A stretch of 35,892 bases of DNA. Origin: an uncultured Lentisphaerota bacterium (lineage in GTDB: Bacteria; Verrucomicrobiota; Kiritimatiellia; RFP12; UBA1067). The first letter of the stretch is position 1. Each line of letters starts with the position of its first letter. Shown here piece by piece: positions 4,142-35,722 of the stretch. The notes under the pieces were generated by a model that ran no database searches, was not told where the DNA came from, and saw nothing but the letters and a program-made list of their open reading frames with translations. Location of the stretch: contig ONRL01000048.1 of assembly GCA_900320225.1 (NCBI GenBank), forward strand, positions 1-35,892, written 5' to 3'. The position numbers and the translations under genes were made by a program.

Positions 4142-4182
4142 GTCAATTTCCTTTGCGATTTTGGGTCATCTGCACGGCGCGT

Positions 4183-6051: not shown

Positions 6052-6067
6052 TTGCGGAAATCCTTTC

Positions 6068-9200: not shown

Positions 9201-10942
9201 GCGCGCCCCGCGATTTCCAGATGGACCTCGCGGTCCGCGCTCGGGTCGAACATCGCGGGGTCGAGGCGGAGGCCGCGGCTCTTCAGGTGTTCGTAGAAGG
9301 TGGGCACGGCGCCGGTGGGGCGGAACGCGCCCGTCACGATGCCGCGTTCGTCCACGCCGGTCTGGCGGAACGCGAAGATGTCCTGCATCACCACGTTCTG
9401 CCCCTCGAGGCCGGTGACCTCGGAGATGGCCACCACCTTGCGGCTGCCGTCGGAGAGGCGCGACTCGTGGATGATGACGTCCACGGCGCTCGCTATCTGC
9501 TCGCGGATCGCGCGGGAGGGCAGCTCCATGCCGCTCATCAGCACCATCGTCTCGAGGCGCGAGATCACGTCGCGCGGCGAGTTGGCGTGCACGGTCGTGA
9601 GCGAGCCGTCGTGGCCGGTGTTCATCGCCTGGAGCATGTCGAGCGCCTCGCCGCCGCGGCATTCGCCCACGATGATGCGGTCGGGGCGCATGCGCAGGCA
9701 GTTCTTCACGAGGTCGCGGATGGTCACCGCGCCGCGTCCCTCGATGTTGGGCGGACGCGCCTCGAGGCGCACGACGTGCGGCTGCATGAGGCGGAGTTCG
9801 GCGGCGTCCTCCACGGTCACGATGCGCTCGTCGTGGGGGATGAAGCCGGAGAGCAGGTTGAGGAGGGTGGTCTTGCCCGAGCCGGTGCCGCCGGCCACGA
9901 TGATGTTCTTGCGCATGATCACGCACGCCTTCATGAACTCGGCGGCGTTGCGCGTCCACGTGCCGAAGCGAATGAAGTCCTCCACGGTGAGCGTCTTCTT
10001 CGCGAACTTGCGGATGGTCACGGTGGGCCCTGTGAGGGAGAGCGGCGGGATGATCGCGTTCACGCGGCTGCCGTCGGCGAGGCGCGCGTCCACGTAGGGC
10101 TGCGACTCGTCGATGCGGCGGCCGATGGGCGAGACGATGCGCTCGATGATGGCCATCACGCTCGCGTCGTCGAGGAACTGGAGGTCGGTGAGCTGGAGCT
10201 TGCCGCCGCGCTCCACGTAGACGCGCTGCGGGCCGTTCACCATGATCTCGGTCACGCTGTCGTCGGCGAGCAGCTCCTCCAGCGGGCCGAGCCTCAGGGC
10301 CTCGTTGAACACCTCGCGCTCGAGGCGCGCGGCGTCGATGCCCTGCGGCAGTTTCCCGGCCGTGCGCACCTGCTCCACGATCTCGTGGATCTTCTCGGTG
10401 GCCTGGCGCTCGAGCCCGGCGCGGTCCACGCCCGCCACGGTGAGCCGCTTGAGGTCGAGGCGCGCGATGAGCTCGCGCTGGATCTGCTCCTTCACCTGCC
10501 GGCGGATGCCGGCCATGGGATCGGGGGGCGGAGGGGCGGGGGGTGGCTCGTCGGCCGCGCGGGAGCGCGGCCCTCCCGCGTCAGGCTCTTCGGCCGCGCG
10601 GGAGCGCGGCTCTCCCGCGGGGGGAGTCGCCGTCTCGGCGGCTTCCTCGGCGGGGCTGACGCGCATCATGTTGCTGCCGATCTGGACGATGGCGTCGGGC
10701 GGCAGGTCCACGTGCCCGTCGATGGGGTTGCCGTTCACGTACGTGCCGTTCGCGCTGTGGAGGTCCTCCAGCCGGGCCACGTGTCCGTGCAGCACGAGGA
10801 GGGCATGGCGGTCCGAGACGTCGGGATCGGGCAGCCGCAGGGCGCAGGCTTCGCCGCGTCCGATGAGGTAGTTGCCGTCGTCGAGGCTGTAGCGCTTGGC
10901 CGTTTCCTCGTTGGGCCTGATGAGGTCGAGCGTAAAGGCCAT
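9197..10942 (-). CDS. cpaF: FHA domain fused to CpaF/TadA secretion ATPase
   Basis: A 581-residue fusion. Residues 1-95 are a forkhead-associated domain with Gly28-Arg29, Ser43, Arg45-His46, Asn65-Gly66-Thr67 and Asn70-Gly71, the phosphothreonine-binding set. Residues about 95-145 are a Pro/Ala/Arg-rich linker encoded partly by two palindromic repeats. From about 150 to 500 follows a PilT/CpaF-type ATPase: DDSVTEIMVNGP, Walker A GGTGSGKTT (about 350-358), RPDRIIVGECRGGEA as Walker B, and TVHANSP. It would power Tad pilus assembly at the inner membrane; the FHA domain suggests control by Thr phosphorylation. GGAGGTC precedes ATG 10942, one base after the cpaB stop. All ATPase motifs look intact. 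Confidence 0.93.
   Translation of the reverse strand: MAFTLDLIRPNEETAKRYSLDDGNYLIGRGEACALRLPDPDVSDRHALLVLHGHVARLEDLHSANGTYVNGNPIDGHVDLPPDAIVQIGSNMMRVSPAEEAAETATPPAGEPRSRAAEEPDAGGPRSRAADEPPPAPPPPDPMAGIRRQVKEQIQRELIARLDLKRLTVAGVDRAGLERQATEKIHEIVEQVRTAGKLPQGIDAARLEREVFNEALRLGPLEELLADDSVTEIMVNGPQRVYVERGGKLQLTDLQFLDDASVMAIIERIVSPIGRRIDESQPYVDARLADGSRVNAIIPPLSLTGPTVTIRKFAKKTLTVEDFIRFGTWTRNAAEFMKACVIMRKNIIVAGGTGSGKTTLLNLLSGFIPHDERIVTVEDAAELRLMQPHVVRLEARPPNIEGRGAVTIRDLVKNCLRMRPDRIIVGECRGGEALDMLQAMNTGHDGSLTTVHANSPRDVISRLETMVLMSGMELPSRAIREQIASAVDVIIHESRLSDGSRKVVAISEVTGLEGQNVVMQDIFAFRQTGVDERGIVTGAFRPTGAVPTFYEHLKSRGLRLDPAMFDPSADREVHLEIAGRA
10551..10619. repeat. Two near-identical 30-base palindromic repeats inside the FHA-CpaF linker
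   Basis: Copies at 10551-10580 and 10590-10619 differ at one base. Each contains 8-base inverted arms CGCGGGAG and CTCCCGCG around a 7-base centre. In protein they encode two copies of the PRSRAA motif. The copies are in frame and in the unstructured linker between FHA and ATPase domains. Confidence 0.85.
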
Positions 10943-10943
10943 T

Positions 10944-11768
10944 TCAGCGACCTCCGTTCAGTTCGCCCTGGCGTTTCTGGTTGAGGGACTCGATTTCCCC
11001 GCGGATCTTCTCGAAGTCGACCTGCGGCAGTTCCTTTTCGTAGTAGGTGTCGTTTCGGTTGCGCAGGGCGAGGGAGATGCGGCCCTTGATCTGCTCGGCG
11101 AACACGAGCATCTCCGCCTCGCGGGGCGTGACCTCGAGCGTGACCATCGAGTAGGATCCTGCGCCGAACGCGTCGCTGCGCGCGATGGAGGACTTCGCCG
11201 TCTCCTTGCCCGTGGCGAGCACGAGCACGTTCTGGAGGATCGTGCAGGTGACGATCTCCTGGATCATCGTGCGGCCGTCCGCCGCGAGCTTCGGGAAGGA
11301 GAAGCTCGCGATCACGTCCACGTGGTCGTTCGGCCTCACCATGCCGCTCACGGCGGCGGCGCCCGCGCAGTTGACGGAGACGGCGCGCATCTTCTTGCGG
11401 ATGTCCGCCGCGAGGCCGCCGCCGATCGGGTTGCCGCCCTCGATGTCCGCCCAGAAGAGAAGCTCGCCTTCCTTGTGTCCGTTGAGGACCTTGCGGCCGA
11501 TGACCTCGATGACGTGTTCCTCCGTGAGGGCCTGCCCGCGCAGGCCGCTCGCGGGCACCGTCTTGAGCCCGAGGTCGGACTTCGCGAGAATCGTGCCGCT
11601 CGGCACCTCGCGCGCGAAGCACAGGACCTCGATCGTCTGGTGCTTTTTCAGGAAGGCGGACTTGAGCTGCTGGATCTCGGCGTCCTTCGACGCGAGGTAG
11701 GTGCGCGTGAGCACGGCGGCGAGAAGGCCGACGGCGATGGAGACGACGAGAACGATTTTCTGTTTCAT
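10944..11768 (-). CDS. cpaB: CpaB/RcpC family Tad pilus assembly protein
   Basis: A 274-residue protein with an N-terminal membrane anchor (about residues 5-22), then a SAF domain (about 45-110: AREVPSGTILAKSDLGLKTV, followed by VIGRKVLNGHKEGELLF), then the RcpC domain with MRAVSVNCAGAAAVSGMVRPNDHVDVIASF, the hallmark of CpaB. It sits in the periplasm, where the family helps connect the Tad platform to the outer-membrane secretin. GAGGA precedes ATG 11768. It lies one base ahead of the FHA-CpaF gene. A secretin (RcpA/CpaC) gene normally next to cpaB is not in this window. Confidence 0.9.
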   Translation of the reverse strand: MKQKIVLVVSIAVGLLAAVLTRTYLASKDAEIQQLKSAFLKKHQTIEVLCFAREVPSGTILAKSDLGLKTVPASGLRGQALTEEHVIEVIGRKVLNGHKEGELLFWADIEGGNPIGGGLAADIRKKMRAVSVNCAGAAAVSGMVRPNDHVDVIASFSFPKLAADGRTMIQEIVTCTILQNVLVLATGKETAKSSIARSDAFGAGSYSMVTLEVTPREAEMLVFAEQIKGRISLALRNRNDTYYEKELPQVDFEKIRGEIESLNQKRQGELNGGR

Positions 11769-11778
11769 GGGGTCCTCA

Positions 11779-11791
11779 TTTTATCATAAAA
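11779..11791. promoter_or_regulatory. AT-rich palindrome upstream of cpaB
   Basis: TTTTAT-C-ATAAAA is a perfect palindrome in an otherwise very GC-rich cluster. It overlaps the end of the preceding gene and lies just upstream of the cpaB ribosome-binding site. It could be an internal -10 region or an operator; no matching -35 is obvious. Confidence 0.3.
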
Positions 11792-12131
11792 CTCCGTGGC
11801 GGAGAAGTTCGGTGACGGTTGTGCCGCCGGGAAGGTCCTCGGCGAGGATCGCCGCGAGGTCGTGTCCGCGCAGCAGGAGCTTGAAGGTGGGCGTGCAGAC
11901 GGGCGCGGGCGTCCAGCCCTCCGCGACGTAGGCGGCCTCGCGCGCGGCGGCGGCGGACGCCGCGGTGCCGGGCGTCTGCCACACGTTCACGACGGTGCGC
12001 TCGCCGGCGAGTTCGATCCGCCCGCCGCCGGCCGGCAGGGCCGGCGCGCCGGTGCGCTGGAAGAACCAGCCGGACGAAACTGCGAGGGCGCACGCGAGAA
12101 GGGCGGCTGCAAGGCGGCGGCGGGTTTTCAC
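11784..12131 (-). CDS. Small secreted or anchored protein of the Tad cluster, unknown function
   Basis: A 115-residue protein starting at GTG 12131, which overlaps the previous stop codon as GTGA, so it is translationally coupled. It begins KTRRR followed by a hydrophobic segment (about residues 7-20), consistent with export or an N-terminal anchor. The remainder has strand-like segments (RIELAGERTVVNVWQTPG) and a C-terminal part reading FKLLLRGHDLAAILAEDLPGG. I recognise no family. Its place between TadE-like and CpaB genes suggests an accessory of the Tad machine. A longer upstream open frame overlaps the previous gene and is disfavoured. Confidence 0.6.
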   Translation of the reverse strand: MKTRRRLAAALLACALAVSSGWFFQRTGAPALPAGGGRIELAGERTVVNVWQTPGTAASAAAAREAAYVAEGWTPAPVCTPTFKLLLRGHDLAAILAEDLPGGTTVTELLRHGVL

Positions 12132-12571
12132 GGCACCACCCCCTTGGCCGCGAATTCGGGAATCTTCATGATGGGCATGTGGCATTCCTCCACCCCCCGG
12201 AACGTCGTCTCGCCGCCCCAGATCCACTCGGCCGTGCCGGGTTCGAGGTCGACGGAGAAGTTGAGGGACTGCGTGCGGAACTCGAGGGGGCGCGCCGAGG
12301 CGTCGGTGAAGAACCCCGTCGTGGTGACGGGCTGGATCTCGGGTTCGGTCAGCACGTGCCGCAGGGTGGGCAGCGGCGAACCGTCGACGCTGCCGGACGC
12401 GTTGCCCTGCGCCTCGTAGCCGGCCATGCGGCGCACCATCGTCTGAAGGCGCATCGACTCGGGGATGATCGCGCCGAACGCCAGCAGTCCGCCCAGGATC
12501 AGCGCGAACACGAGCATGCCGATCGCCATCTCGATCATGGCCTGGCCGCGTCTGGACGCCTCAGTGCGCAT
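12128..12571 (-). CDS. TadE/TadG-like pseudopilin
   Basis: A 147-residue protein with the short basic N-terminus, RRGQAMIEMAIGML motif and following hydrophobic helix (about residues 14-33) of TadE-type pseudopilins. The Gly-Gln step followed by a Glu is the probable prepilin peptidase site. The globular remainder is strand-rich. It is a candidate minor pseudopilin of the Tad pilus. ATG 12571 overlaps the end of the TadG-like gene by 11 bases, with GGAGGAGG upstream. Only one residue pattern supports the family, so the call is class-level. Confidence 0.75.
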   Translation of the reverse strand: MRTEASRRGQAMIEMAIGMLVFALILGGLLAFGAIIPESMRLQTMVRRMAGYEAQGNASGSVDGSPLPTLRHVLTEPEIQPVTTTGFFTDASARPLEFRTQSLNFSVDLEPGTAEWIWGGETTFRGVEECHMPIMKIPEFAAKGVVP

Positions 12572-13994
12572 GGCGCGTGCCTCCTCCCGGCGCGCCGCCG
12601 CCGGTCGGGCGGCGGCACTGGTCCTCCCCGTTTTCCGCGAGCCATTTGACGCCCGCCGCGCGGAAGGCGGGATCCTCCCATTTCCGCAGGACGTTGCAGT
12701 AGGTGCAGCCCTTCGCGTGGGCGACCGAACTGGGCGGCTGGACGTGGTCGCGCGTGTGCGTCACCCACGCGCGGTCCGCCATGTTCAGACTCCCCTCGTC
12801 GAACGCGCCGAGCATTACGAGGCGCACGTCCGTGAACGCGGGCGTCACGAGGGGGAACTCGCCGTTCCACGTGACGGTGCGGTCGTCGATCGAGCCGAAG
12901 GGCTTCGCCGCGGCCGTCCACACGTTGGAGCGGCCGGACACGCCGGGCGTGAAGGGTTCGAGGAACTGGAGGACGCGCGTGGCGGCGAACGCGCCCTGCA
13001 CGTCGTACTTCTCCTTCACGTCGGAGATCAGCGGCAGGCGCGCCGCGTCGGCGCGGTGCATGCGTTTCCAGGCATGCCAGCCGGCGCCGTAGGCGACCCA
13101 GGCGAGGTGGCGGTTCGTGATCACGCCGCACTGCTGGAGGGTGAAGTCGTTCACGTTCGGGCAGTCGTTGCGGTCGGCGAGCTCGAGCACGGCGGCCCGC
13201 GTCTGCTGCTCGGTCCAGTCGCGGTTGAAGTCCGCGAGGGCCCCGCGCACGGTGCGGACGTCCGTGCCGAAGAACTCGGGGTTCTCCGGGGAGTTGGCTC
13301 CGGAGAAGGGGATCTCGCTCCAGCCGGCGAAACTCGCGAGCAGGTCGTTCATCCCGTCGCGCAGGTAGAACCAGCACCAGTCCTCCCCGGCCACGGCCTC
13401 GTAGAAGGCCTTGGAGTAGAGCGGGTGGGACGACCGGATGGCGAAGTTGAAGAACTGCGCGTTGTCCACGCCCGCGCAGACGCCGTCGCGCGCCGCGCCG
13501 CGCAGCATGTCGGCGTAGTCCTCCGCCTTCTCCGGCCAGAGGTCGGTGCCGGACAGCATCGGCGCGCGGGACGCCGCCTCGGCGACGAGCGCGGCCATGT
13601 CGGCGTCCGGCTTGTCCACGCCGTTCTTCAGCGCGGCGCGCTGGGCGGCGTAGAACCCCATGAGCGGGCCGGCGAACGCGATGCGCTCCTGAAGGGCGGT
13701 GACGCGTTCGCAGATGTTCGTGGCGGCGTCCCACGCCGCCGGGTTCAGCGAGGGATCGCCGATCTTGCAGAGCACGTCGATCTTGGCGAGGTTGAGCGCG
13801 CCGAGGGCGTTGAGCGTGATGCCCTGCCAGCGGGCGGCCGCGAGCGCGGCCGCGTCGCCGGCGTTCTGGAGACGGTTCTTGCGGTGCGAGGCGAGGAAGG
13901 CGTCCACGCCCACGAGCGCGAGGAGCAGGAGCCCCAGCAGCATGAACGCCAGCACGAGCACGACCTGCCCGCTCTTTCGCGCGCGGTCCTTCAT
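12561..13994 (-). CDS. TadG-like pilus assembly protein
   Basis: A 477-residue protein starting at ATG 13994 in an ATGA overlap with the upstream TadE-like gene. The N-terminus KDRARKSGQVVLVLAFML, then a hydrophobic helix, then RLQNAGDAAALAAA is the signature of TadG/Flp-associated proteins, where the helix precedes an Asp-Ala-Ala-Ala-Leu-Ala-Ala segment. The long remainder is extracytoplasmic, Trp- and Asn-rich, and includes a C-terminal CTYCN pair of cysteines. No von Willebrand A MIDAS motif is evident, unlike many TadG proteins. It probably acts as a large minor pseudopilin or tip component. Confidence 0.72.
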   Translation of the reverse strand: MKDRARKSGQVVLVLAFMLLGLLLLALVGVDAFLASHRKNRLQNAGDAAALAAARWQGITLNALGALNLAKIDVLCKIGDPSLNPAAWDAATNICERVTALQERIAFAGPLMGFYAAQRAALKNGVDKPDADMAALVAEAASRAPMLSGTDLWPEKAEDYADMLRGAARDGVCAGVDNAQFFNFAIRSSHPLYSKAFYEAVAGEDWCWFYLRDGMNDLLASFAGWSEIPFSGANSPENPEFFGTDVRTVRGALADFNRDWTEQQTRAAVLELADRNDCPNVNDFTLQQCGVITNRHLAWVAYGAGWHAWKRMHRADAARLPLISDVKEKYDVQGAFAATRVLQFLEPFTPGVSGRSNVWTAAAKPFGSIDDRTVTWNGEFPLVTPAFTDVRLVMLGAFDEGSLNMADRAWVTHTRDHVQPPSSVAHAKGCTYCNVLRKWEDPAFRAAGVKWLAENGEDQCRRPTGGGAPGGGTRHAH

Positions 13995-14545
13995 TGCAGG
14001 TAGAGAGGATAGTGGCTTTCGATGCCGGCTTCGCCGCGGACTTCGTGGAGGTCCGTGTCGTCCGAGTCGTAGAGGGGGCGCCGTTGCCACACGCGGACGG
14101 TCAGTTCGGCGTTTTCGCCGCCGGGCTCGTCGGCGGACCAGCCCAGCTTGTCGGACTCCCACAGCTCGAAGTCGAGGATGCCCTTGGTGTCGCCCTCGTT
14201 CTCGGCCTCCAGGTAGCTGCCCATGCGGCTCACGAGCGTGCCGGTGGCGAGGTCGTCGCCCTTGTCGTCGTGCGACAGGCACTTCCCGGCCATGCTCGCG
14301 GTCGCCACGCGCACGGTCTTCGTGACCATGAAGTCGTTGAACCCCACGGTGCGGGCGCGCGCGGCGCGGGCGGCGGCGTAGTTCACCACCGTGTGCGCGG
14401 TGAGCAGGTTCGCGTATTCGTAGACCAGGAAGAAGACGAGGCAAAGAAAGAACATGACGACGACCGTCTCGACCATCGCCTGTCCTTTCCGCCTGCCGGA
14501 CCGCGTGCGGGCGTCGGCGCGGAAGCGCGCCGGCCATGCGGTCAT
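13991..14545 (-). CDS. TadE-like pseudopilin
   Basis: A 184-residue protein. A long basic N-terminus (about residues 1-21) leads to KGQAMVETVVVMFFL and a hydrophobic helix up to about residue 45, followed by NYAAARAARARTVG, typical of TadE proteins. The remainder is a short globular periplasmic domain. TadE is a pseudopilin processed by the TadV prepilin peptidase, not seen here. ATG 14545 overlaps the Flp stop as ATGA. The gene lies in a chain of overlapping Tad genes, so expression is probably coupled to pilin. Confidence 0.82.
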   Translation of the reverse strand: MTAWPARFRADARTRSGRRKGQAMVETVVVMFFLCLVFFLVYEYANLLTAHTVVNYAAARAARARTVGFNDFMVTKTVRVATASMAGKCLSHDDKGDDLATGTLVSRMGSYLEAENEGDTKGILDFELWESDKLGWSADEPGGENAELTVRVWQRRPLYDSDDTDLHEVRGEAGIESHYPLYLQ

Positions 14546-23403: not shown

Positions 23404-26400
23404 ATGAAGATTGGAATCTTGCTTGGCGTGACGGCGCTCGGTTGGACCGTGTTGGCAGCGAACACATGGTACGTGGACGATGCCAAATACGGCGCGTCTG
23501 GAACGGGTGAATCGCTGGAGACGGCGTTCGGCACGATCCAGGAGGCCGTCACGCGCGCCAGTGCCGGCGACACGGTGCTTGTGGCGCCGGGCACGTACAA
23601 CCGAGGTTCGACCAAAGCCTCGGGCGACAGTACGTCCAGCCGCGTCGTCATCGACAAGGACATCACCGTCAAGTCAATCGAGGGCGCGGCCAAGACGATC
23701 ATCGTGGGTGCGCCGGACTTCACGGGGGAACCGTTGCACGGGCTGGGACCAGATGCCGTGCGCTGCGTGGCGATGTCGGCGACGGGATCCGTGTTGGAAG
23801 GGTTCACGCTCACGGGCGGATACGTCTACCAGTCCACGGGGTCGGATAGTTTCACGGTCCGCGGCGGCGGCGTTAACATTGCGATAGGGAATAACAGCAA
23901 TCTACATAAGCCGTTCGTCGTGGACTGCGTGATCTCCAACAACGTGGCGACGCGCGGCGGCGGCGCGTTCGGCGGCACGCTCGTCAGATGTTTCGTCGCG
24001 GAAAACAGGGTCTACAACACCGCCAGCAACACGACGCGCAACGGTGCGGGCGCGCGCAGCGGCCGCTACTACAACTGCGTGTTCACGCGCAACGACGACC
24101 CCAACGCGCAGTGCGGCTCGACTGTCTCGTGGATCATCGCCATGGTGAACTGCACCGTGATGGGGAACCACAGCAACCCGGCCGTGGCCACTGACTTCAG
24201 CACTTCGTCGCCGGCATGCGTCTGGAACTCGATCATCCACCACAACGCCGGCAATCTTTCGTCTGCAATGGCGCGGGAGAGCAGCATTGTTTCCGGAACC
24301 GACTATCTGGTCGTTTCGCCAATCGTGGACGACTGGCGGCCGATCGCGGGCAGCGCGGCGGACGGGGAGGGGAGCCTGGAGGGTCTTGCGACAATCCCCG
24401 AAGAATACCGCGACAAGGATTTCTACGGCAATCCGCGCATGACGGACGGGACGGTGTGCGTCGGTGCGGCGGAAGGTGCCGTGACGCCGAAGGGCGGTCG
24501 GATCACGTTCGCCAACACGGACATCACGTTGGACGGACATCCAATTTCGCGACCGACACTCTACCACCACGCAGCCGAATGGCCTGCGCAGGTGTACCTG
24601 AAGCCAACGGAGGCAGCCGAAGGGCTGGCCTTCTTTGGCACTGTTGCCGAGGAGAAGATCGGGTCGGCCTCGGCCACATGGTACACGCTCTTCAACGACC
24701 GCGCGGGCGGCCGCTGGATGACGTTGCCCGATGCGGATACGACCATCAACCTCACGCCGGTGTTCGCGACGCTCCTGTGGGTTGATTGTGCTTCGACGGC
24801 AGCCGAGCCGGACGGTTCGGCAGCTGCGCCGTTCCCCACAATCCAGCAAGCCGCGGACGCGACTGTCAGTGGAGTCAATAGCGGTTACCGCGTAATTCGC
24901 GTGCGGCCCGGCACGTACGACACGGGCTGGACGGAGAACGACTGGGGACGGGCGCGCGTGATCGTGTCCGCGAAAAACGCCTTGCTGACTTCTGAGCAAG
25001 GTCCCGAGAACACGATCATCGTAGGCGCGTCCGACCCGGATGCGCCGGCGTCCGACAACGGCTGCGGACCGAACGCCCTCCGGTGCGTGTTTGTCGAGGG
25101 GGACAAGGCCCATGTGGGCATCAGCGGCTTTACGCTGACGGGCGGGCATTCCCAGATCGTAACGAGCGGCGGCGACTCGAAAGGCCACGGCGGCGCGTTC
25201 AGGTTCCAGGAGCGGACGCGCCAGCAGGCGCTCGACTGCATCATCACGAACAATGTCGCGTGTCGGGGTCCGGCCGGGATGTACGGCTGGTGCCAGCGGT
25301 GCCTGATGGCCGACAACTACGACCAGTCCGGGATAAACGCCATCTTTCGCGAGGGGAGATTGTCGTCCTGCGTCCTGCGCGACAACCTGAACGCCGCACA
25401 TACGGGCATCGGGCAGAACGTGTGGGCGTACCAGTGCACGGTCCTGGGCGTCGCCGGGAAGCAGAACGTCTATACTGCCAGCAGCGGCTCGTTCACCATC
25501 CTTGCCGCAAACTGCCTCTTCCTTGACGGCAACAACGGCAACGACTCGATCGGCCTCGTCGCCGGGTGTTTTGCGGACACCACCGGCAACAAAAGCCGGA
25601 CTTACGGCATCACCTACGGCGCGGCGTGCGTCGTGGACAAGGACGCGCGCGATTTCCGTCCGCTCGCCACCACGCCGCTCGTGGGCGGCGGCGACACGTC
25701 CCTCAGAGAATGGGCGCACTACACGGTATCGGATTTCCAGAACCGTCCGATCGTCTTCACGGACGGCAAGCCGACGATCGGCGCGTATCAGCACACGGTG
25801 GGCGCGGTGGTCGTGATGCCGCCGTCAGAAGGAGGCGTCATGAACGTCACGACGAACGCGCTGGAGGAGGGCGTGACGCTGTCGGGCACGATGTCCTCCA
25901 CCGAACGCAACCTGCTTGGCATCTCCGTCGGCGGAGAATATCAGGAAGGCGTGTTCAACTGGACGGTGGCGGGCGCGGAGGACATGCCGCCGGTGGAGGT
26001 GCGGGCCGTTTGTTCACCAGACTGGTATGTGGATGCCGTGAACGGCAACGACGCCAACAACGGGTGGACGGCGGCGACGGCTAAGAAGACGCTCGCGACG
26101 ACGGCCGCGCTTGCGGTTTCTGGCGACGTCGTCCACGCGCTGCCGGGCGTGTACAACGTGGGCGAGACGTTGGCGCCGGAACGGTTCTACACGGCAGAGA
26201 CGCTGCGGATCAAGTCGCGCGTGGTGGTGCCGCGGGGCGTGACGCTCGTCGCCGACGGCCCGCGGGACGAGACCGTGATCGAGGGCGCCCCGGCGACGCT
26301 TGCGCGCAATCAGGGTTCCAGCGGCGACACGTCGATGGGATCGTTCGAGACGTGCCTTGCTGACCATGGCGTCGGGTCGAACGCGACGCGGTGCGTGACG

Positions 26401-27486
26401 CTGCTCGCGGGTGCGCGAATCAGGGGCTTCACGTTGCGCGGCGGGCGTACGGACGTCGCGAACAGCGCCACTGCCGACAACCACACGGGCAGCGCCGTGT
26501 TTGGATTGGATTACCGGACTTGCTTTGTGGAGGACTGCCTCATGGAGGACAACCGTTCCGGGCGCGCGACCCTCGCGCGCGTCACGGCCGACCGGTGCGT
26601 AATCCGCAACAACTACTGCATGTGGAACCGTCCGGGCGCGACATACTCGCTTCTGCGCAACTGTCTCTTCACCGAGAATCACGGCGACCGCATCGCCGAC
26701 TACTGCTACGGCTTTTACAACTGCACGTTCCACAAGAACTACGGGTACAAGACAACTTCCACGGGCGTGTACATCCTCAGCGAGGCCGCGGAGGCGGGCG
26801 TTTCCGTGCCGTTCGTGAACTGCATCTGCACGCAGACCTCCAACGTGAACAAGTTCGGCGATCTCCGAAATTCGATTTTCCTTGAGAACATCACCGTGCA
26901 GGGCACGAACTCGTGCGAGAACCTGATGCGCGTGGCGTCGGCGGACGAGCTGCTGGACGCGAACGGCGCGCCGCTGAAGGGGTCGATCGCGGTGGACGGC
27001 GGCGATATTTCCTGGTACGACGCGGCGGCCGGCGACAAGGACGTGAACGGCGGCCAGCGCGTCTACAACGGCGCGATCGACGTCGGTGCCGTCGAGTACG
27101 ACTGGCGTCCCGACTACAAGGCTCTCCTGACGGACTCGCGGCGGCTGGCGGTGACGGCGGCCTCGCCGGAGGTGGAGGCGGCGGTTGGCGGCGTGTACCT
27201 GCCGGGCGGCGAGCTGACGGCGGAGGTGTCCGACACGCGTGCGGCTGGCGGCACGGGGTGCGAGCTGACGGCGCGCGTGACGGGCACGGGCACGCTCGCG
27301 GTGCGCGTGGGCGACGTGACGGTACGCGAACTGACGGCGGCGGACGGCGAGACGTCGCTCAAGCTCAGGACGACGGGCCTTGCCACGTCCTTCGTCTGCG
27401 CCTACACGCCCGGCGAGAACGAGACGGGCGGCGCGTACGTGGGTCCGTTCGCGGTGGCGAACGGTCTGACCCTCATCTTCAGGTAG
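23404..27486 (+). CDS. Secreted protein with three tandem right-handed beta-helix (pectate lyase-like) modules
   Basis: A 1360-residue protein with signal peptide (1-18, VLA-AN). Three modules of the DUF1565/pectate-lyase-like type repeat, each opening WYVD or LLWVD then an A..TI/TL strand, a PGTY or PGVY turn (residues 62, 502, 914), a RCV strand (120, 560, 996) and GFTL(T/R)GG (133, 575, 1008). PGTY to RCV is 58 residues in modules 1 and 2 and 82 in module 3, so module 3 has an insert. Linkers of about 100 residues separate them. The last 120 residues are a beta-domain ending GLTLIFR. No conserved lyase catalytic residues can be assigned, so it may bind or cleave polysaccharide. AAGGA precedes ATG 23404. 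Confidence 0.83.
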   Translation: MKIGILLGVTALGWTVLAANTWYVDDAKYGASGTGESLETAFGTIQEAVTRASAGDTVLVAPGTYNRGSTKASGDSTSSRVVIDKDITVKSIEGAAKTIIVGAPDFTGEPLHGLGPDAVRCVAMSATGSVLEGFTLTGGYVYQSTGSDSFTVRGGGVNIAIGNNSNLHKPFVVDCVISNNVATRGGGAFGGTLVRCFVAENRVYNTASNTTRNGAGARSGRYYNCVFTRNDDPNAQCGSTVSWIIAMVNCTVMGNHSNPAVATDFSTSSPACVWNSIIHHNAGNLSSAMARESSIVSGTDYLVVSPIVDDWRPIAGSAADGEGSLEGLATIPEEYRDKDFYGNPRMTDGTVCVGAAEGAVTPKGGRITFANTDITLDGHPISRPTLYHHAAEWPAQVYLKPTEAAEGLAFFGTVAEEKIGSASATWYTLFNDRAGGRWMTLPDADTTINLTPVFATLLWVDCASTAAEPDGSAAAPFPTIQQAADATVSGVNSGYRVIRVRPGTYDTGWTENDWGRARVIVSAKNALLTSEQGPENTIIVGASDPDAPASDNGCGPNALRCVFVEGDKAHVGISGFTLTGGHSQIVTSGGDSKGHGGAFRFQERTRQQALDCIITNNVACRGPAGMYGWCQRCLMADNYDQSGINAIFREGRLSSCVLRDNLNAAHTGIGQNVWAYQCTVLGVAGKQNVYTASSGSFTILAANCLFLDGNNGNDSIGLVAGCFADTTGNKSRTYGITYGAACVVDKDARDFRPLATTPLVGGGDTSLREWAHYTVSDFQNRPIVFTDGKPTIGAYQHTVGAVVVMPPSEGGVMNVTTNALEEGVTLSGTMSSTERNLLGISVGGEYQEGVFNWTVAGAEDMPPVEVRAVCSPDWYVDAVNGNDANNGWTAATAKKTLATTAALAVSGDVVHALPGVYNVGETLAPERFYTAETLRIKSRVVVPRGVTLVADGPRDETVIEGAPATLARNQGSSGDTSMGSFETCLADHGVGSNATRCVTLLAGARIRGFTLRGGRTDVANSATADNHTGSAVFGLDYRTCFVEDCLMEDNRSGRATLARVTADRCVIRNNYCMWNRPGATYSLLRNCLFTENHGDRIADYCYGFYNCTFHKNYGYKTTSTGVYILSEAAEAGVSVPFVNCICTQTSNVNKFGDLRNSIFLENITVQGTNSCENLMRVASADELLDANGAPLKGSIAVDGGDISWYDAAAGDKDVNGGQRVYNGAIDVGAVEYDWRPDYKALLTDSRRLAVTAASPEVEAAVGGVYLPGGELTAEVSDTRAAGGTGCELTARVTGTGTLAVRVGDVTVRELTAADGETSLKLRTTGLATSFVCAYTPGENETGGAYVGPFAVANGLTLIFR

Positions 27487-27489
27487 GTT

Positions 27490-29301
27490 ATGCGAAAAAC
27501 GTTAGGCTTGTCTGTGGCCGTTTTGTGCGTCACGTTGTTCGCCGACGAATCGGCGAGCCATGCGCGCGTGCGCATCCGAACGACGAAGGGCGTGGAGACG
27601 CGGCACGTGCCGCTCGTGCGCACGGGCGAGAACGCCGCGCGTTTCACGTTCCGACGGGCCGATTTGCCGCAAGGCGCCAAGTGGCTGGACGTGGTGCCGG
27701 ACTTCATGACCGCGCGGCGCGGCGAGGAGGGCTACTGGATCCAGGGGCGCGGACTCTACGGCACGTTCGACAAGTTGGCCGGCACGAACGTCTGGCGTCG
27801 CCAGCAGATGCCCATCTACGGCATGAAGCGCGGGAACCGTCTCGCCTGGGCGCATGTGCGGACGTACCGTTTCGACTACGACCTGACGGTGACGGCCGCG
27901 GACGGTACGTTTGAGATTTTCCCGCGCATCCAGTTCGACCGCGTGCGCCGGTTCTTCGACCTCTACGCCGACATCGAGATCGACTTCCACTTCCTTGAAG
28001 GCGACGCCGCCGACTACAACGGCATGGCCAAGGGCTACCAGGCATACCAGTTCGCGCACGGCGTGAAGCCGATCAAGGAACGGATCAGGGATTACCCCGA
28101 CCTCGCCTACATGTGCGACGCGATGGTGATCCGCATCCAGACGCACGGTGCAAAGACGATTCCCGACAAGCCGACGGACTTCACGAAGGAGACCGAATGG
28201 CCCATCAACGTGTACATGCCGTTCGACAAGGCGGAGGAGTTCGTGTCTGCGATCCACGCCTCGGGCATCGACAAGGCGGCCATCGTCTCGGCCGGATGGA
28301 ACAAGGGCGGCTACGACGGACAACTGCCGGAGCACTTCCCCGTGGAACCCGTGTTCGGCGGCGAGGCGGGCCTGCGGAAGCTCATCCGCCACACGCAGGA
28401 TCTCGGCTATCTCATCATGCTGCACGCCACCTGCACCGAGGTGTACCGCATCTGCCCGCGCTTCGACGAGAACGACATAGCCAAGCGGCGGGACGGGTCA
28501 TGGGACTGGAACGGACTCTACTTCGGCGGAAGCTGCTACTGGGTGTGCGAGCGGCGGAGCTGGGAGAACTGGATCCCCGAGGAGATGCGGCGGATGCGCG
28601 CGCTCGGCGTGAAGGGGAGCCACTACGTGGACGTGTTCTCCGCCACGTACCCGAACAGGTGCGCCGATCCGCGCCACCCGGCCACGCCCGAGCAGATGGC
28701 CGGATACCAGAACAACATCCTTGCCGAGGCGAAGAAGGTGTTCGGCGGCGTCACGTCCGAGGGCGGCTACGACCATGTGGCGGCGAACATCGACTGCATC
28801 AACTACGTGTCCGTGGAGATGAAGAAGATCCACGACGGAAAGACGAAGGGACTGGAACTGGTGAGCGGGTGCCATCCGCTCTGGGAACTCGTCTACCACG
28901 GCGTGATCCTCTACACGCCCGACCGCCTCACGCAGAACCACACGCGCGGGCAGAACCATCCGAAGAAGGACGAGTCCGGCACGCTCGACTGGCTGGAAGG
29001 GGACGGCATCGTGGATCCCGCGATCTCACTGAAGATCGTGGAGTTCGGCGGACGTCCCATCTTCTATTCCTACAAGACGAAAGACGTGCCGGCGATGAAA
29101 CGCGCGTGGGACGAGTTCGTCCCGGTGCGGCATCTGCAGAAGGAACTGATGCTGTCGCATCGGACGCTGGCGCCTGGCGTCACCGCCACGCGCTACGGAA
29201 ACGGCGAGACGGTGGTCTGCAACTATTCCGACAAACCCTATCAACAAGGTCTGGAAACCGTGCCGTCGCTCGGCTACCGGATCTTGAAGAGTGAAAGATG
29301 A
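27490..29301 (+). CDS. Putative secreted glycoside hydrolase (GH101/DUF5696-like TIM barrel)
   Basis: A 603-residue protein with signal peptide (about 1-18, TLFA-DE). After an N-terminal beta-sandwich (about 20-165) lies a barrel-like region with conserved-looking acidic and aromatic stretches: AAIVSAGWNKGGYDG, YLIMLHATC, GSHYVDVFSATYP and SEGGYDHVAANIDCI. This order resembles GH101 (endo-alpha-N-acetylgalactosaminidase) and DUF5696 proteins common in gut PVC bacteria, where Asp and Glu in the D-V-F and S-E-G motifs would be catalytic candidates. The resemblance is by pattern only. The start is three bases after the beta-helix stop, with AGGTAGG across it, so the two are coupled. Substrate unknown. 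Confidence 0.6.
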   Translation: MRKTLGLSVAVLCVTLFADESASHARVRIRTTKGVETRHVPLVRTGENAARFTFRRADLPQGAKWLDVVPDFMTARRGEEGYWIQGRGLYGTFDKLAGTNVWRRQQMPIYGMKRGNRLAWAHVRTYRFDYDLTVTAADGTFEIFPRIQFDRVRRFFDLYADIEIDFHFLEGDAADYNGMAKGYQAYQFAHGVKPIKERIRDYPDLAYMCDAMVIRIQTHGAKTIPDKPTDFTKETEWPINVYMPFDKAEEFVSAIHASGIDKAAIVSAGWNKGGYDGQLPEHFPVEPVFGGEAGLRKLIRHTQDLGYLIMLHATCTEVYRICPRFDENDIAKRRDGSWDWNGLYFGGSCYWVCERRSWENWIPEEMRRMRALGVKGSHYVDVFSATYPNRCADPRHPATPEQMAGYQNNILAEAKKVFGGVTSEGGYDHVAANIDCINYVSVEMKKIHDGKTKGLELVSGCHPLWELVYHGVILYTPDRLTQNHTRGQNHPKKDESGTLDWLEGDGIVDPAISLKIVEFGGRPIFYSYKTKDVPAMKRAWDEFVPVRHLQKELMLSHRTLAPGVTATRYGNGETVVCNYSDKPYQQGLETVPSLGYRILKSER

Positions 29302-29316
29302 CATGGAGGCATTGAA

Positions 29317-30882
29317 ATGAAAGAAAGAACACTGGTGTGTGCGCTTGGCGTGGCGCTGGCCGCCGGATGCATGGCGGGAACGTTCAACGGCCTGACGGCC
29401 GACATGGCGTCGCTCTGCCGTCTTTCCGACGCGCGTTCGCGCTCGATCAGTCCTGAGAACTTCACCGGCGCGCGCAACGCCGGCGCGCTGGCCGATCCGG
29501 TCGCGGACAAGGACAAGCGCAATGTCGCCAACGCGTCGGGCTGCGCTCGCGAGCTCGGCAAGGGCTGGAAAGTGAACCCGTTCGTCAAGATCGCGCCCGG
29601 CGAGACGCTGACGCTCGCGGACATCGAGGGACCCGGCGCGATCCAGCACATCTGGATGACGCCCACGAAGCTCTGGCGGCATTCCATCATCCGCATGTAC
29701 TGGGACGACGAGGCCACGCCGTCGGTGGAGTGCCCCGTGGGCGACTTCTTCGCGAGCGCCTACAACAAGTACGCGCAGGTGTCCTCCCTCGCCGTCTGCG
29801 TGAACCCCGGCAGCGCGTTCAACTGCTACTGGCTCATGCCGTTCCGCCGCCGCGCGCGCGTGACGATGGAGAACGTCGGCAAGGAGGAGATGCGCCTCTA
29901 CTACCAGATCGACTACGCGCTCACGGACATCCCGTCCGACGCCGCCTACCTCCACGCGCAGTTCCGCCGCTCGAACCCGACCAGGGGATCCGTCCACACG
30001 CTTGTCGACGGCATTTCGGGCAAGGGGCACTACGTGGGCACGTACGTCGCGTGGCGCGTGCACGACACGGGCTGGTGGGGCGAGGGCGAGATCAAGTTCC
30101 ACCTCGACGGCGAGGAGAAGTTCACTACGCCCTACACGGGGCTCGCGCAGGTCATCAAGCCGGACGATCCGGCGGACTTCACATCCTTCGGCCTCTACCG
30201 CTGGCACGTGACGGATCCCGTCCGCTTCGAGAAGGGCCTGAAGGTGACGATCCAGGACCTCGGCTGGAAGGCGCGCGGACTCTACAACGCACAGGCGTCC
30301 GACATCGCCTCCACAACGTTTTGGTATCAGTCGGAACCACACGCCCCGTTTCCGAAACTTCCCTCCGCGGATGATCTCGTCATGCGCCATGTGTATACCG
30401 AAAAGCCGCCGCGCATCGTGAAACTCCCCTCGACCGCAATCCTCTTCGAGGATTTTGAGAAGGGGTACGGCAAATGGAAAGTTACCGGCGAGGCGTTCGG
30501 CCCCGGTCCCGCGCGCGGCACGCTCGCAGACCAGAATCCGGTCGACGGCTACAGCGGCCAGTTCCTCGTCAACACGTTCTTCCAGGGCGACGACACGAAG
30601 GGAACGCTCACCTCGCCCGCGTTCACGATCGAGAAGCCGTTCATCAACTTCCTCGTGGGCGGCGGAAACTACAAGGACCAGACGTGCGTCAACCTCGTGG
30701 TCGACGGCAAGACTGTGCGCACGGTGACCGGTAAGAACGCCGAGCGTCTGGAGTGGACGCACTGGGACGTCAGGGAATTCAAGGGGCAGACAGCCATGAT
30801 CGTGATCGTGGACGACCGCACCGGTCACTTCGGCCACATCAACGCCGACAGCTTCTACTTCGACGACTCCCCGCACAAGTGA
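29317..30882 (+). CDS. DUF2961 (GH172-type) protein with C-terminal GH32-associated beta-sandwich, apparently missing the GTEDY segment
   Basis: A 521-residue protein with a signal sequence (LAAGC at 14-18, lipobox-like). Residues about 30-340 are DUF2961/GH172: GPGAIQHIWMT, PSVECPVGDFF, YWLMPFRRRARVTMEN, GKGHYVGTY, then WWGEGEIKFHLDGEE and FGLYRWHVTDP. GH172 contains alpha-fructofuranosidases/difructose anhydride synthases and D-arabinofuranosidases. Normally the DG step leads into a GTGTEDYF loop with a catalytic Glu; here DGEE (residues 264-267) runs straight into KFTTPYTG, so this loop is absent although the first Glu (Glu256) is present. Residues about 370-520 (EDFEKGYGKW, GTLTSPAFTI, VDGKTVRTVTG) match a beta-sandwich found in GH32 fructanases (DUF4980-like). 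It closes the operon. Confidence 0.85.
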   Translation: MKERTLVCALGVALAAGCMAGTFNGLTADMASLCRLSDARSRSISPENFTGARNAGALADPVADKDKRNVANASGCARELGKGWKVNPFVKIAPGETLTLADIEGPGAIQHIWMTPTKLWRHSIIRMYWDDEATPSVECPVGDFFASAYNKYAQVSSLAVCVNPGSAFNCYWLMPFRRRARVTMENVGKEEMRLYYQIDYALTDIPSDAAYLHAQFRRSNPTRGSVHTLVDGISGKGHYVGTYVAWRVHDTGWWGEGEIKFHLDGEEKFTTPYTGLAQVIKPDDPADFTSFGLYRWHVTDPVRFEKGLKVTIQDLGWKARGLYNAQASDIASTTFWYQSEPHAPFPKLPSADDLVMRHVYTEKPPRIVKLPSTAILFEDFEKGYGKWKVTGEAFGPGPARGTLADQNPVDGYSGQFLVNTFFQGDDTKGTLTSPAFTIEKPFINFLVGGGNYKDQTCVNLVVDGKTVRTVTGKNAERLEWTHWDVREFKGQTAMIVIVDDRTGHFGHINADSFYFDDSPHK

Positions 30883-31084: not shown

Positions 31085-34000
31085 TCAGCGGACGTGGATG
31101 ACCGTGCGCGTGTGGTAGACGGTGGCGCGGGCGGACTGGCTGACCGTGTAGTTGGCGTTGTCGATGTACGCCACCACGTCGTAGGTGCCGTGCGATTCCA
31201 CCTTGTCCGTGATCACCAGCTCGCGGCCGGTGGCGTTCGGAATCGGCACGCCGTCCTTGCGCCACTGGTACGAGACCGCGTCCGGCGCGTAGACGGAGAG
31301 CACGATGTCGCCCGCGCCGAGCAGGCGCTTCGTCAAGGCGTCCGGCTGGACGATGATCTCCGGCCCGTTGCCGAGCGACGCCGCGCCCGTTGCGAGCGGA
31401 CGCACGAGTACGTAGATGTTCTTCACGCTGTAGTTGACGGCGTTTCCTTCCTGGAAGGTCCAGTCGGGATCCTTCTTGGCGGTGGAATTCGGGTTGTTCC
31501 CCACGCCGAGGCCGGGGATGCGCGTGTTGAGTTCCTTGCCGGCGCCGCTGTGGCCGAACGCGACCATCGAGAGGATCGTCTCGTGCTCCAGGTAGTTGTG
31601 CACCTGCATCGACCCGTGGCCGTTGGCGAGCTTCGCGTCGGGCATGCTGTCGCCGAAGTCGTAGTCCGAGGCGCTGGCGCCGGGTACGTTGCGGGGGTTG
31701 CTCGCGCCGTAGTTGTTCGGCCAGAACTCGAGGTTACCGGTCGCGTAGTTGCCGGTGTGCACGGGCAGGGACCCGGCGCTCGCGCCCGCGTAGACGGAGA
31801 GGTTCGTGACGTAGCACTGGTGGTTGATCTGCCGCTCCACGCTCGGCACGCCGATCTTGGAGGCGTCCTCGCAGAACGTGTCCATCGCGGCGCACGTCCA
31901 GCGCCAGCTGTTCGTGTCCTGCAGCTCCATGCAGTACGCCACGCGGTCGAAGCGCATGCCGCCGTCGAAGCGGCTCTCGTCCACGAGGTAGTCCGCGCCC
32001 GGATGGCTGTAGCACACGCGGTCCGTCACCTTCAGCTCGTTCAGCAGGCGGTAGCCGGCGAGTTCGGGGACCGCGTTCGTGAGGAACGCGGGGACGGCTC
32101 CGTCGCGCGCGACGACGGAGAGCGTGACGTTCGCCGCGTACGGCGCGAGCGAGACGACGAGCGCGTTCGTGGTGTCGACTTCCAGCGGCTGCGCGAGGGT
32201 GAGCAGCACGTCGCGCGGCTCGCCGGCGGAGGGCGACACGTCCGCGATCCGGACGGACGGATCTGCGAAGGCGTAGCGCTCCGCCTTCTGCAGGTCCTGC
32301 GGCACGGCGGACGGGAAGGAGACGCACACCTTGTCGCGCGCGGCGCTGACGATCGCGCGGCGGGGCAGGCCGACGTCGTTGATCGGCAGCGGGTCGAGCC
32401 GCTTCGCGCGGCTCACGAAGATGCGCAGGCGGCGGTAGGAGTAGCTACCCGCGTTTGACGCGTGCGTCCAGTCGGGGTCGTTGGTGGGACGGTTCCCGAT
32501 GCCGACGCACACGGACGCGCCCGTGTTGTAGTTGTTGACCGCGAAGAGCGTCTGCTTCGCGCCGTAGTTGTGCACCTGCACGCAGCCGTAGCCGGCGGAG
32601 CCCACACTGTCCATCTGGTCGCCGAAGTCGTAGGTGCTGCCGCTCGCGTCGGGGATGCCGATCTTGTTGCCCTTGCTGTAGTTGTTGGAGTGGAACTCGA
32701 TGTTGCCGGTGGCGATGCCCTTGCCGGTGATGATGCCGGAGACGTTGGACTCCACGTCGAGGTTGGCGATCTTCTGCTGGTAGGTGAAGTTGGTGGGGAT
32801 GACGAGGCGCGTCGCGTCCTGTGTGAAGGCGTCGAAGGCCGTCCAGACGTACTGGGTTGTCGTGGAGTTGTTCGCGACGAGCTCGAAGAAGTAGGCAACG
32901 CGCGCGAAGTCCTTTCCGATCTTCGCGGTGTTGTCCGTCACGCGGTAGGAGAGGTTGCTGGTCGGGTCGTTCATCCAGCCCTTGACGGGGATGTCGTAGT
33001 CGAGCACGAGCTCGTAGTTGGCGGCGTCGGGCACACGCGCGACGACGTCCGCCGGAACCTCGCCGAACGTCGCCGGCGCGGGGCCTTCCTTCGCGAGCAC
33101 GTAGATGCGGCGCATGGCGTAGGTGCCCGCGTTGTCGGCGTGCGTCCAGTCCGAGTTGGCCTGGCCCACGCGGTTGCTGATGCCGAATCCGATGAAGGCG
33201 TTGTTGTAGCCCCAGCGGTTCATGCCGAAGAGCGTCTGCTTCGCCGCGTAGTTGTGGATCTGCATCGAGCCGTAGGAGCCGCCGGCGCTCTTCGTGTCGT
33301 CGAAGTCGAAGCCGGAGTCGCTGCCGCCGAGGCCGAGCTTCCCCTTCGCGGTGTAGTCGGTGGGCCAGAACTCGATGTTGCACGTCTCGAGGCCCGTGCC
33401 GGTCTGGAGGCCGGAGACGTTCGATGCGACGTCCGTGTTGCGCAGCTTCTGCTGGAACCAGGTGCCGGTGGAGGAGAAGGGGATGCCGATCTGCGTGGCC
33501 TTCTCGGTGAACGCGTCCGTCGCCACCCACACGTACCTGACCGAGGTGGGGGCGTTGGGCATCGTGTACTCCGCGAAGTAGGCCACGCGGCTGAAGGCGT
33601 TCGTGGCCATGGACTCGTCGATGAAGAAGGCGTCGGGGTTGTTGATGAAGCGTCCCTTCTGGGGAATGTCGAAGGCGTAGACCACCTGGAAGCCCGCGGT
33701 GAGGCTCGCGTTCACGCGGCTCGAGATGTCCGACGGCAGGCCGCGGTCGACCACGGCGACCTCGGTGCGCGCCAGTGCGTTGACGTGCGGCGACTGGTCG
33801 CGCACGCCATCGACCGCGAGCGTGACGGCCCCCGCCGGCAGCACGTCGGTGAGGACGTGCACCACGCGCGCATCGACGGTGGAGCGGCGGACGGAGCGGA
33901 CGGCCACGGCGCCGCCGTTCACGGCGAAGCACGTGGCCAGGTTGGCCTCCGCGACGGGCTCGGAGAAGGTGATGGTGATCTTCTGGCGGGAGAAGCCGCA

Positions 34001-35722
34001 TTCGGCGGAGACGACGGCGGGCGGCGTGCGGTCGGCCGCGTCCGGCAGCACGTACACCTGGATGCGGCGCACGTCGTACGTGTTGCCGTTCTCCACGAAC
34101 GTCCAGTCCGTCGAGCGCGAGTCGCCGCTGCTGTTGCCGATGCCGAGCTGGGTCTTCTGCGTGGGGGAGCTCTGCGCGTCCGGCACGGCCCAGTGGTTGA
34201 AGGCGAAGACGGTCTGCTTCGCCGCCACGTCGTGCACCTGCATGCTGCCGTAGTTGCCGTTCGACATCTGGTCGCCGAAGTCGTAGAGCGAGCCGCTCGC
34301 GCCGGGGACGTTTTTCGCGTTGCCCGTGTTGTAGGAGTTCGGCCAGAACTCGATGAAGCCCTGCCCCCGGTCGCCAGTCTGGACGCCCGGCACGTTGCTC
34401 CACACCTTGAGGTTCTGGACGTACTGCTGGAAGGTCTTGCCGCGCGCGCGGACGGGCACGCCCACGAAGGCGGCGTCGTTCGTGAAGGCGTCCATCGACA
34501 CCCACACGTACTGCAGGTCCTCGTTCGGCTTGCGCAGCTCCACGTAGTACGCCACGCGCGCGATGCTGCCGAATTCCATGTGGTTGTCGACGGCGTAGAA
34601 GGTCGCGTCGATGCAGTTGGCGCCGGCGGCGGGCGGGTCGTAGCTGTAGACGAGCTTGTACTGCGCGAACTCCGAGGCGGGGACGTAGTTCTCCACGCCG
34701 CGCGGATGCTCGAAGAAGAAGGAGAGCGTCTGCGCGGACGTCATCGCGGAGCCGTCGACGGCGTTGACGAGTCCGGAGACGGTCAGCGCGTGGGAGCCGT
34801 AGGCGCCCGGGGCGGCGAGCGTGAGCGTGACGGTGCGGCTGTCGCCGGAGGCGTTGAGCGAGGCGGAGGCGATCGTGCAGCCCGAAAGCGCGTAGTTCGC
34901 GAGGTTCTCGGCGGAGGCCTGCGTGACGGCGGTGTTGACGCGCAGGGTGACCGTGGCGCGCGTGGCGCTGTTTCCGGTCGCCAAGACTGGGGCTGGCGCG
35001 TGGGCGGTGGCGACGGCCGCGGGGTCGGGATAGAGTTCCTGGATCGCGCCGAACCAGGCATTCGCCATCACGTCGTAGCCCGCTGCGTTCGGGTGGAGGA
35101 GGTCGGTGTTGAAATATCCCGTGTTGTCGCCGACTGCGGTGTGCATGTCGAGGATGGTGATCTTCTGTCCCTTTGCGACCTGTGTGGCCACGACGTTGGT
35201 CAGGTTGGAGTTGTACGTCTGGATGCGTGCGTAGCGCGTCGCGTCGCCGCGCCACAGGATCGTGGTGGCGATGACGTGCGCGGAGGGCTGCAGGGCGAAG
35301 AGGCGGTCGAGGAGCGCCGTGGTACGCGCCATGTTGTTCAGCGTGTCGGCGCCGGAGTCGTTCGTGCCGAGGTGGAGGAGGATGACGTCCGGCGACTCGA
35401 TGGTGCTGAACCAGGTGGGCAGCTTCTCGAAGATTCCGTTGCCGCCGTAGGTGCCGTCGAGGCGCCAGCCGCCGTGGCCCTCGTGGTCGGGGTCCATGCC
35501 GTTCGTCTTGTCCTGGTTGGTGGTGTTGGAGCCCACGTAGTCCACGTTGTACCCGGCGTTCGCGAGCAGGGTCCAGAGCGGCCCGCGGTAGCCGCCGGTG
35601 CTGGTGGCGCCGGCGCCCTCGGTGATCGAGTCGCCGAGCGGCATGATGCGGAGCACGGGGTTTGCAAACGCGAACGGGGCGGCCAGGCAGGCGCCCAGGA
35701 GAATTGTCAATGGCTTATTCAT
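31085..35722 (-). CDS. Giant secreted SGNH hydrolase with four tandem unnamed repeats of about 200 aa
   Basis: A 1545-residue protein with signal peptide (1-20, AFA-N). Residues 22-235 are a complete SGNH hydrolase: PLGDSITEGAG with Ser32, HLGTNDSG, and DLLHPNAAGYD with the Asp-His pair. An SbsA/Ig-like domain follows (about 240-335). Then come four repeats at about 345-560, 675-880, 895-1105 and 1215-1440, each with RVAYY(V/F)E(L/Y), YVW or WTC then DAFT or DTFC, IEFWPN, YDFGD, GSMQVHNY and GIGN...DWT, and ending in a strand like RRI-V-VL. Ig-like linkers separate some. An Ig-like domain (1455-1535) precedes the C-terminus TVIHVR. It probably de-esterifies a glycan outside the cell. GGAGG precedes ATG 35722. 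Confidence 0.85.
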   Translation of the reverse strand: MNKPLTILLGACLAAPFAFANPVLRIMPLGDSITEGAGATSTGGYRGPLWTLLANAGYNVDYVGSNTTNQDKTNGMDPDHEGHGGWRLDGTYGGNGIFEKLPTWFSTIESPDVILLHLGTNDSGADTLNNMARTTALLDRLFALQPSAHVIATTILWRGDATRYARIQTYNSNLTNVVATQVAKGQKITILDMHTAVGDNTGYFNTDLLHPNAAGYDVMANAWFGAIQELYPDPAAVATAHAPAPVLATGNSATRATVTLRVNTAVTQASAENLANYALSGCTIASASLNASGDSRTVTLTLAAPGAYGSHALTVSGLVNAVDGSAMTSAQTLSFFFEHPRGVENYVPASEFAQYKLVYSYDPPAAGANCIDATFYAVDNHMEFGSIARVAYYVELRKPNEDLQYVWVSMDAFTNDAAFVGVPVRARGKTFQQYVQNLKVWSNVPGVQTGDRGQGFIEFWPNSYNTGNAKNVPGASGSLYDFGDQMSNGNYGSMQVHDVAAKQTVFAFNHWAVPDAQSSPTQKTQLGIGNSSGDSRSTDWTFVENGNTYDVRRIQVYVLPDAADRTPPAVVSAECGFSRQKITITFSEPVAEANLATCFAVNGGAVAVRSVRRSTVDARVVHVLTDVLPAGAVTLAVDGVRDQSPHVNALARTEVAVVDRGLPSDISSRVNASLTAGFQVVYAFDIPQKGRFINNPDAFFIDESMATNAFSRVAYFAEYTMPNAPTSVRYVWVATDAFTEKATQIGIPFSSTGTWFQQKLRNTDVASNVSGLQTGTGLETCNIEFWPTDYTAKGKLGLGGSDSGFDFDDTKSAGGSYGSMQIHNYAAKQTLFGMNRWGYNNAFIGFGISNRVGQANSDWTHADNAGTYAMRRIYVLAKEGPAPATFGEVPADVVARVPDAANYELVLDYDIPVKGWMNDPTSNLSYRVTDNTAKIGKDFARVAYFFELVANNSTTTQYVWTAFDAFTQDATRLVIPTNFTYQQKIANLDVESNVSGIITGKGIATGNIEFHSNNYSKGNKIGIPDASGSTYDFGDQMDSVGSAGYGCVQVHNYGAKQTLFAVNNYNTGASVCVGIGNRPTNDPDWTHASNAGSYSYRRLRIFVSRAKRLDPLPINDVGLPRRAIVSAARDKVCVSFPSAVPQDLQKAERYAFADPSVRIADVSPSAGEPRDVLLTLAQPLEVDTTNALVVSLAPYAANVTLSVVARDGAVPAFLTNAVPELAGYRLLNELKVTDRVCYSHPGADYLVDESRFDGGMRFDRVAYCMELQDTNSWRWTCAAMDTFCEDASKIGVPSVERQINHQCYVTNLSVYAGASAGSLPVHTGNYATGNLEFWPNNYGASNPRNVPGASASDYDFGDSMPDAKLANGHGSMQVHNYLEHETILSMVAFGHSGAGKELNTRIPGLGVGNNPNSTAKKDPDWTFQEGNAVNYSVKNIYVLVRPLATGAASLGNGPEIIVQPDALTKRLLGAGDIVLSVYAPDAVSYQWRKDGVPIPNATGRELVITDKVESHGTYDVVAYIDNANYTVSQSARATVYHTRTVIHVR

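Follow-up and report, generated by a model that had tools for sequence, protein, structure and literature searches.

A chimeric GH172-like gene without the GTGTEDYF loop in an uncultured Kiritimatiellia bacterium

Near the end of the window (the whole 35,892-nucleotide stretch of DNA analysed here), a gene encodes a secreted GH172-like protein which retains the first catalytic glutamate of its family and lacks the segment carrying the second. The locus raises the question of whether the product is a glycan-binding protein, an enzyme with a rebuilt active site, a copy that is decaying, or an error of assembly. The features on which the answer depends are as follows (A denotes single-domain GH172 proteins of 384-386 aa and B denotes larger GH172 paralogues of 700-755 aa).

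23404-27486, beta-helix protein, in a likely operon with the next two genes
27490-29301, DUF5696 protein, in the same likely operon, before the GH172-like gene
29317..30882, + strand, exported GH172-like chimera of 521 aa (ORF translation), with PF11175 in two stretches
29347..30382, + strand, A-type part, residues ~11-356, orthologue of the single-domain proteins; DNA identity to relative G009 is 96% before the deletion and 90% after it
30082..30084, + strand, codon of the retained catalytic Glu256 in WWGEG, aligned to alphaFFase1 E270 and to the first of the catalytic Glu residues in DgGH172c
30119..30120, + strand, deletion breakpoint, where every intact orthologue has 84 bp (28 codons) more, including GTGTEDYF (DNA alignment)
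30382..30404, + strand, A/B fusion junction, between the end of A similarity and the start of B similarity
30404..30879, + strand, C-terminal beta-sandwich of B type (residues ~363-521), sharing 74-76% identity with the C-terminal end of the larger paralogues
Sequence of the window allele: GGCGAGGAGAAGTTCACTACG

The gene, its surroundings and the 84-bp deletion

The protein passes the PF11175 gathering score (243 bits vs 27), with a match that is split into two stretches and skips profile positions ~159 to ~174. It possesses a signal peptide at about residues 1-20, and its ORF lies 15 bp beyond the stop of the preceding gene, immediately 3' of a GGAGG ribosome-binding site. According to spacing and strand, it is likely the last gene of an operon with other secreted proteins. 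The assembly is a metagenome-like, 95%-complete draft of 351 contigs, for which Kiritimatiellae MAGs from goat omasum and sheep rumen are the closest named public records, and the chimera is its only GH172 locus; a search of it for an intact second A or B copy yielded only a 76-bp fragment. The window flanks gave no DNA match to the A or B loci of relatives beyond the gene itself, and synteny with those loci was rejected since the DNA similarity is confined to the gene.

Around the first catalytic Glu the translation reads ...TGWWGEGEIKFHLDGEEKFTTPYTGLAQVIKP..., while the intact orthologues of G009, G003, G015, G039 and G038, which belong to the same genus or family, read WWGEGEIKF[H/Y]LDGEENPTICGTGTEDYFCGSYNFEIGGRAKYREFTTPYTG at the same place. 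All five have ...DGEENPTICGTGTEDYFCGSYNFEIGGRAKYREFTTPYTG... where the window has ...DGEEKFTTPYTG... In the DNA alignment to relatives, window positions 29347-30119 and 30119-30382 both match and are separated by a single clean 84-bp gap that keeps the frame, with flanks overlapping by a microhomology of 1 bp, the A at 30119. The in-frame loss of the GTGTEDYF loop suspected in the earlier note is thus borne out against five intact orthologues, in which the second catalytic Glu indeed stands 21 residues after the first, and the reading frame was rightly called intact, as it runs over 521 codons without stop or frameshift.

The allele is confined to this genome, as a degenerate pattern for DGEEKFTTPYTG was found in 1 of 115 family genomes, namely its own. 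A motif scan covered the fetched loci, with 114 distinct GH172-like ORFs, of which 111 passed, and the window ORF was the sole true failure; two other candidate loop-less ORFs were rejected, because the regular expression was mis-anchored and both carry GTGTEDY. DNA identity to G009 drops from 96% to 90% across 30119. Recombination exactly at this position is not supported by a permutation test (26/300) or by the sites shared only with G009, which run on to 30213, and it is also disfavoured by the relaxed synonymous conservation of the part after the breakpoint, which is seen in other pairs too.

Among relatives of solved structure the closest is ExoMA1 (PDB 8ic8, E 1e-92), a GH172 exo-alpha-D-arabinofuranosidase from Microbacterium arabinogalactanolyticum, with which the window protein shares the WWGEGEIKF and FGLYRWH motifs and a predicted double jelly-roll. 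ExoMA1 differs in carrying an insert between the two stretches that align, which is absent from the window protein, and in lacking the C-terminal sandwich. The match breaks exactly at the suspected site and leaves ExoMA1 residues 236-258 unmatched, so that the alignment with a characterised GH172 enzyme agrees with the loss. Compared with GH172 alphaFFase1 (7v1v) and DgGH172c (8ah3 is a Dysgonomonas GH172 entry), the protein has the family and the first catalytic Glu in common, but has no equivalents of E291, D292 and W298 of the former or of E254 and D255 of the latter. The intact A orthologue of G009 (C48:15672-16817) is 94% identical over residues 5-275. Intact A orthologues (e.g., that of G009 and G039 C89:152-1312) carry the same type of export signal, whereas they possess the loop, end at residues 384-386 and are without the sandwich. 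A literature search for GH172 pseudoenzymes or for GH172 in Kiritimatiellae found no paper in the collection searched.

Catalytic residues and predicted fold

The first catalytic Glu is kept, as the earlier note stated, being E256 encoded at 30082-30084, and so is the pair of Trp residues in front of it, which belong to the -1 subsite. The deleted 28 residues hold the GTGTEDYF loop, and with it the second catalytic Glu (equivalent to alphaFFase1 E291 and DgGH172c E254), the adjacent Asp (equivalent to D292 and D255, respectively) as well as some of subsite -1, and the stretch that aligns with alphaFFase1 W298 is missing too. For alphaFFase1, the nucleophile is proposed to be E291, with E270 as the acid/base, while W298 lies in subsite -1; E291Q keeps 0.8% of activity on the pNP substrate and 2.2% on inulobiose, E270A retains <=0.6%, and Asp292 mutants about 1% (PMC8605356). 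For DgGH172c, E254A caused a >10^5-fold drop, and the activity of E233A was undetectable (PMC10115798).

As predicted from its sequence, the window product is accordingly almost certainly unable to hydrolyse glycosides, and the gene would be a GH172 descendant rather than a GH172 enzyme by mechanism, because the second catalytic Glu is deleted. The active sites of GH172 sit at the interface of two trimer subunits (PMC10509167), and a dead subunit could in principle help a live one, but the sole GH172 locus of this assembly would leave no active partner for a mixed trimer. Of the two outcomes that the earlier note had offered, the loss of enzyme activity is the expected one, while nothing speaks in favour of a re-engineered site. 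That alternative, in which E266, E267, a tail residue or a residue of the neighbouring subunit would act as nucleophile, draws on the presence of the E266-E267 pair and on nothing further. An equivalent catalytic Glu was sought elsewhere by alignment and none was found: the same pair is an ordinary feature of orthologues with a normal loop, it follows E256 by 10-11 residues rather than 21, and the -1 subsite has also lost its Asp and Trp, which makes a rebuilt active site highly improbable.

Modelling of the structure, which the earlier note had proposed, kept the match to 8ic8 (Z 38.0, rmsd 2.2 over 321 residues), a predicted double jelly-roll with low confidence at the deletion (pLDDT about 46-63) and at the fusion linker (34-48). 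In the AlphaFold model of intact G009, the lost residues lie, partly at low confidence, between strands 254-261 and 300-306. The deletion would therefore remove no core strand, and the double jelly-roll probably still forms, because the lost residues belong to a loop that joins two strands of the core. This argument is a weak one, since AlphaFold models are prone to show the family's native fold regardless of what has been deleted.

Origin of the C-terminal sandwich

Intact A orthologues stop at residue 384-386, shortly past ...FPxLPxADxLVxxP, while the window ORF continues into a second domain. The gene is a chimera, a point missing from the earlier note, in which residues ~363-521 derive from the CBM-like sandwich of paralogue B (e.g., G003 C303). 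In the B proteins themselves the loop is intact (GTGTEDHY or GTGSEDYY) and is accompanied by a long N-terminal part; the window protein has neither. The fused beta-sandwich that had been noted as complete is not native to the protein, and its origin from a paralogue is itself evidence of rearrangement. The sandwich has no match in Pfam and no significant sequence match in the PDB, the one to CBM61 2xom being non-significant (E 0.35), and its model resembles CBM61, CBM29 and a CBM8 entry at Z ~8, a level common to many sandwiches. No other fusion of A with such a tail occurs among the matches listed from 346 class genomes.

At the fusion, the peptide spanning the junction, MRHVYTEKPPR, is not identical to either parent, and a GC3-poor stretch at 30307-30487 crosses the junction (60-73%, vs about 90% elsewhere in the gene). 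The longest exact match covering the fusion is <=13 bp, and so short a shared word speaks against an assembler having joined A and B there. A simple deletion between an A gene and a following B gene was rejected as the origin of the fusion, because G039 has B upstream of A on the same contig and strand, an order from which one deletion would not yield A-B.

In G039 (L159; RGIG6996, sheep rumen), both GH172 types, with A intact, sit in a cluster at G039:C89:152-7458 (- strand) in the order B, GntR-type regulator, sugar transporter, FGGY sugar kinase and A, the regulator being of the GntR/periplasmic-binding type. This cluster may be a candidate D-arabinose utilisation locus in Kiritimatiellae, as it would fit the use of a pentose such as D-arabinose.

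Decay, binding or assembly artefact

Two lines of evidence bear on whether the gene is still in use. The A part shows a pairwise dN/dS to G009 of 0.07-0.09, and its private changes before the breakpoint comprise 5 synonymous changes against 1 nonsynonymous one in about 740 bp, so that the gene appears to have been under purifying selection until recently, or to be so still. After the breakpoint there are 6 synonymous and 5 nonsynonymous private changes over about 263 bp, numbers too small for a test, and the C-terminal part has a dN/dS of 0.33 vs G003, compared with 0.14-0.20 between B genes of different species. On the other side, A gene copies have been repeatedly broken in this clade, as indicated by two cases. 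The sister species G010 (L119, G010:C204:1857-2868, - strand) carries a 113-bp frameshifting deletion just upstream of the Trp-Trp-Gly-Glu motif, and the window's own genome holds an orphan A-type fragment of 76 bp (G000:C311:10678-10767; L003, L120), 88% identical to the window and 91% to G009, which is the remnant of a further A-type copy. The fragment sits in a short gap between unrelated genes.

A deletion keeps the frame by chance in one of three cases. Given these odds, the restriction of the deletion to one genome, the G010 frameshift and the orphan fragment, the earlier assertion that this is not simple decay is unproven. Points against decay do exist, namely 521 codons without stop or frameshift and the constrained A part, and an in-frame deletion together with an in-frame fusion is less likely under pure decay than either alone. 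Nevertheless, in view of the one-in-three odds and the breakage across the clade, the favoured reading is a dead allele that was broken not long ago, followed by a binding pseudoenzyme and then by an artefact.

The best reading of the sequence is therefore a real, lineage-specific and rearranged allele that is catalytically dead. More fully, we assign a probability of roughly 0.58 to a real, recently rearranged secreted GH172 copy of the exo-alpha-D-arabinofuranosidase type, loop-deleted and fused, catalytically dead and most likely being lost. The loop with the nucleophile Glu, the Asp beside it and part of subsite -1 would have been lost through a deletion of 84 bp, in frame, with hardly any homology at its flanks and of the type produced by end joining or slippage. 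In addition, the native stop would have given way to the CBM-like sandwich from the C-terminus of another GH172 paralogue in the same genus. Such a copy would most likely be on its way out, with at most weak glycan binding, and would most likely be one-off damage rather than a new system.

Less than half as probable is a functional pseudoenzyme, in which the loop-less GH172 domain would serve as an extracellular binder of D-arabinan or fructan and the acquired CBM-like sandwich would add affinity. The intact frame, the retained E256 and Trp pair, the low dN/dS of the A part, the likeness of the sandwich to CBM61, CBM29 and a CBM8 entry and the position of the gene at the end of a likely operon of secreted proteins are all consistent with this. 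However, the deletion and the fusion are private to one genome, part of the sugar-binding subsite (Asp292 and Trp298 equivalents) went with the loop, the synonymous and nonsynonymous private changes after the deletion are nearly equal in number, and the C-terminal dN/dS is raised. The more specific proposal, that nucleophile loss and a paralogue's CBM-like sandwich turned an exo-alpha-D-arabinofuranosidase into a natural secreted glycan-binding pseudoenzyme, is somewhat more doubtful again. Less likely than either is an assembly or library artefact, in which the contig would join normal A and normal B pieces or skip 84 bp. The draft nature of the assembly, the occurrence of both anomalous joints in a single gene and a single assembly with no second observation, and the lack of an intact A or B elsewhere in it would suit an artefact, but the shared bases at the deletion (1 bp) and around the fusion are far below assembler k-mer lengths, the frame is kept at both joints, the GC3-poor stretch spans the fusion point and the junction peptide is exact in neither parent.

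The gene represents a naturally occurring GH172 variant from which the loop was deleted. Should its product fold and bind, this would show that the double jelly-roll can do without the nucleophile loop, and the protein could be used directly to bind D-arabinan-type glycans. The likelier case of a dying copy calls for caution, as Pfam-based annotation would label a non-enzyme as a GH172 enzyme.

Finally, some further genes in the window lie on the - strand. Tad/Flp pilus genes (FHA-T2SSE ATPase, RcpC/CpaB and TadG-like) are present at 9200-14537, and the DUF4340, ABC_transp_aux and ABC-2 membrane genes at 2873-6811 resemble a gliding-type (GldG-like) ABC transporter set. At 31085-35722, a gene encodes a protein of 1545 aa in which a GDSL esterase domain at the N-terminus precedes several long, repeated modules.
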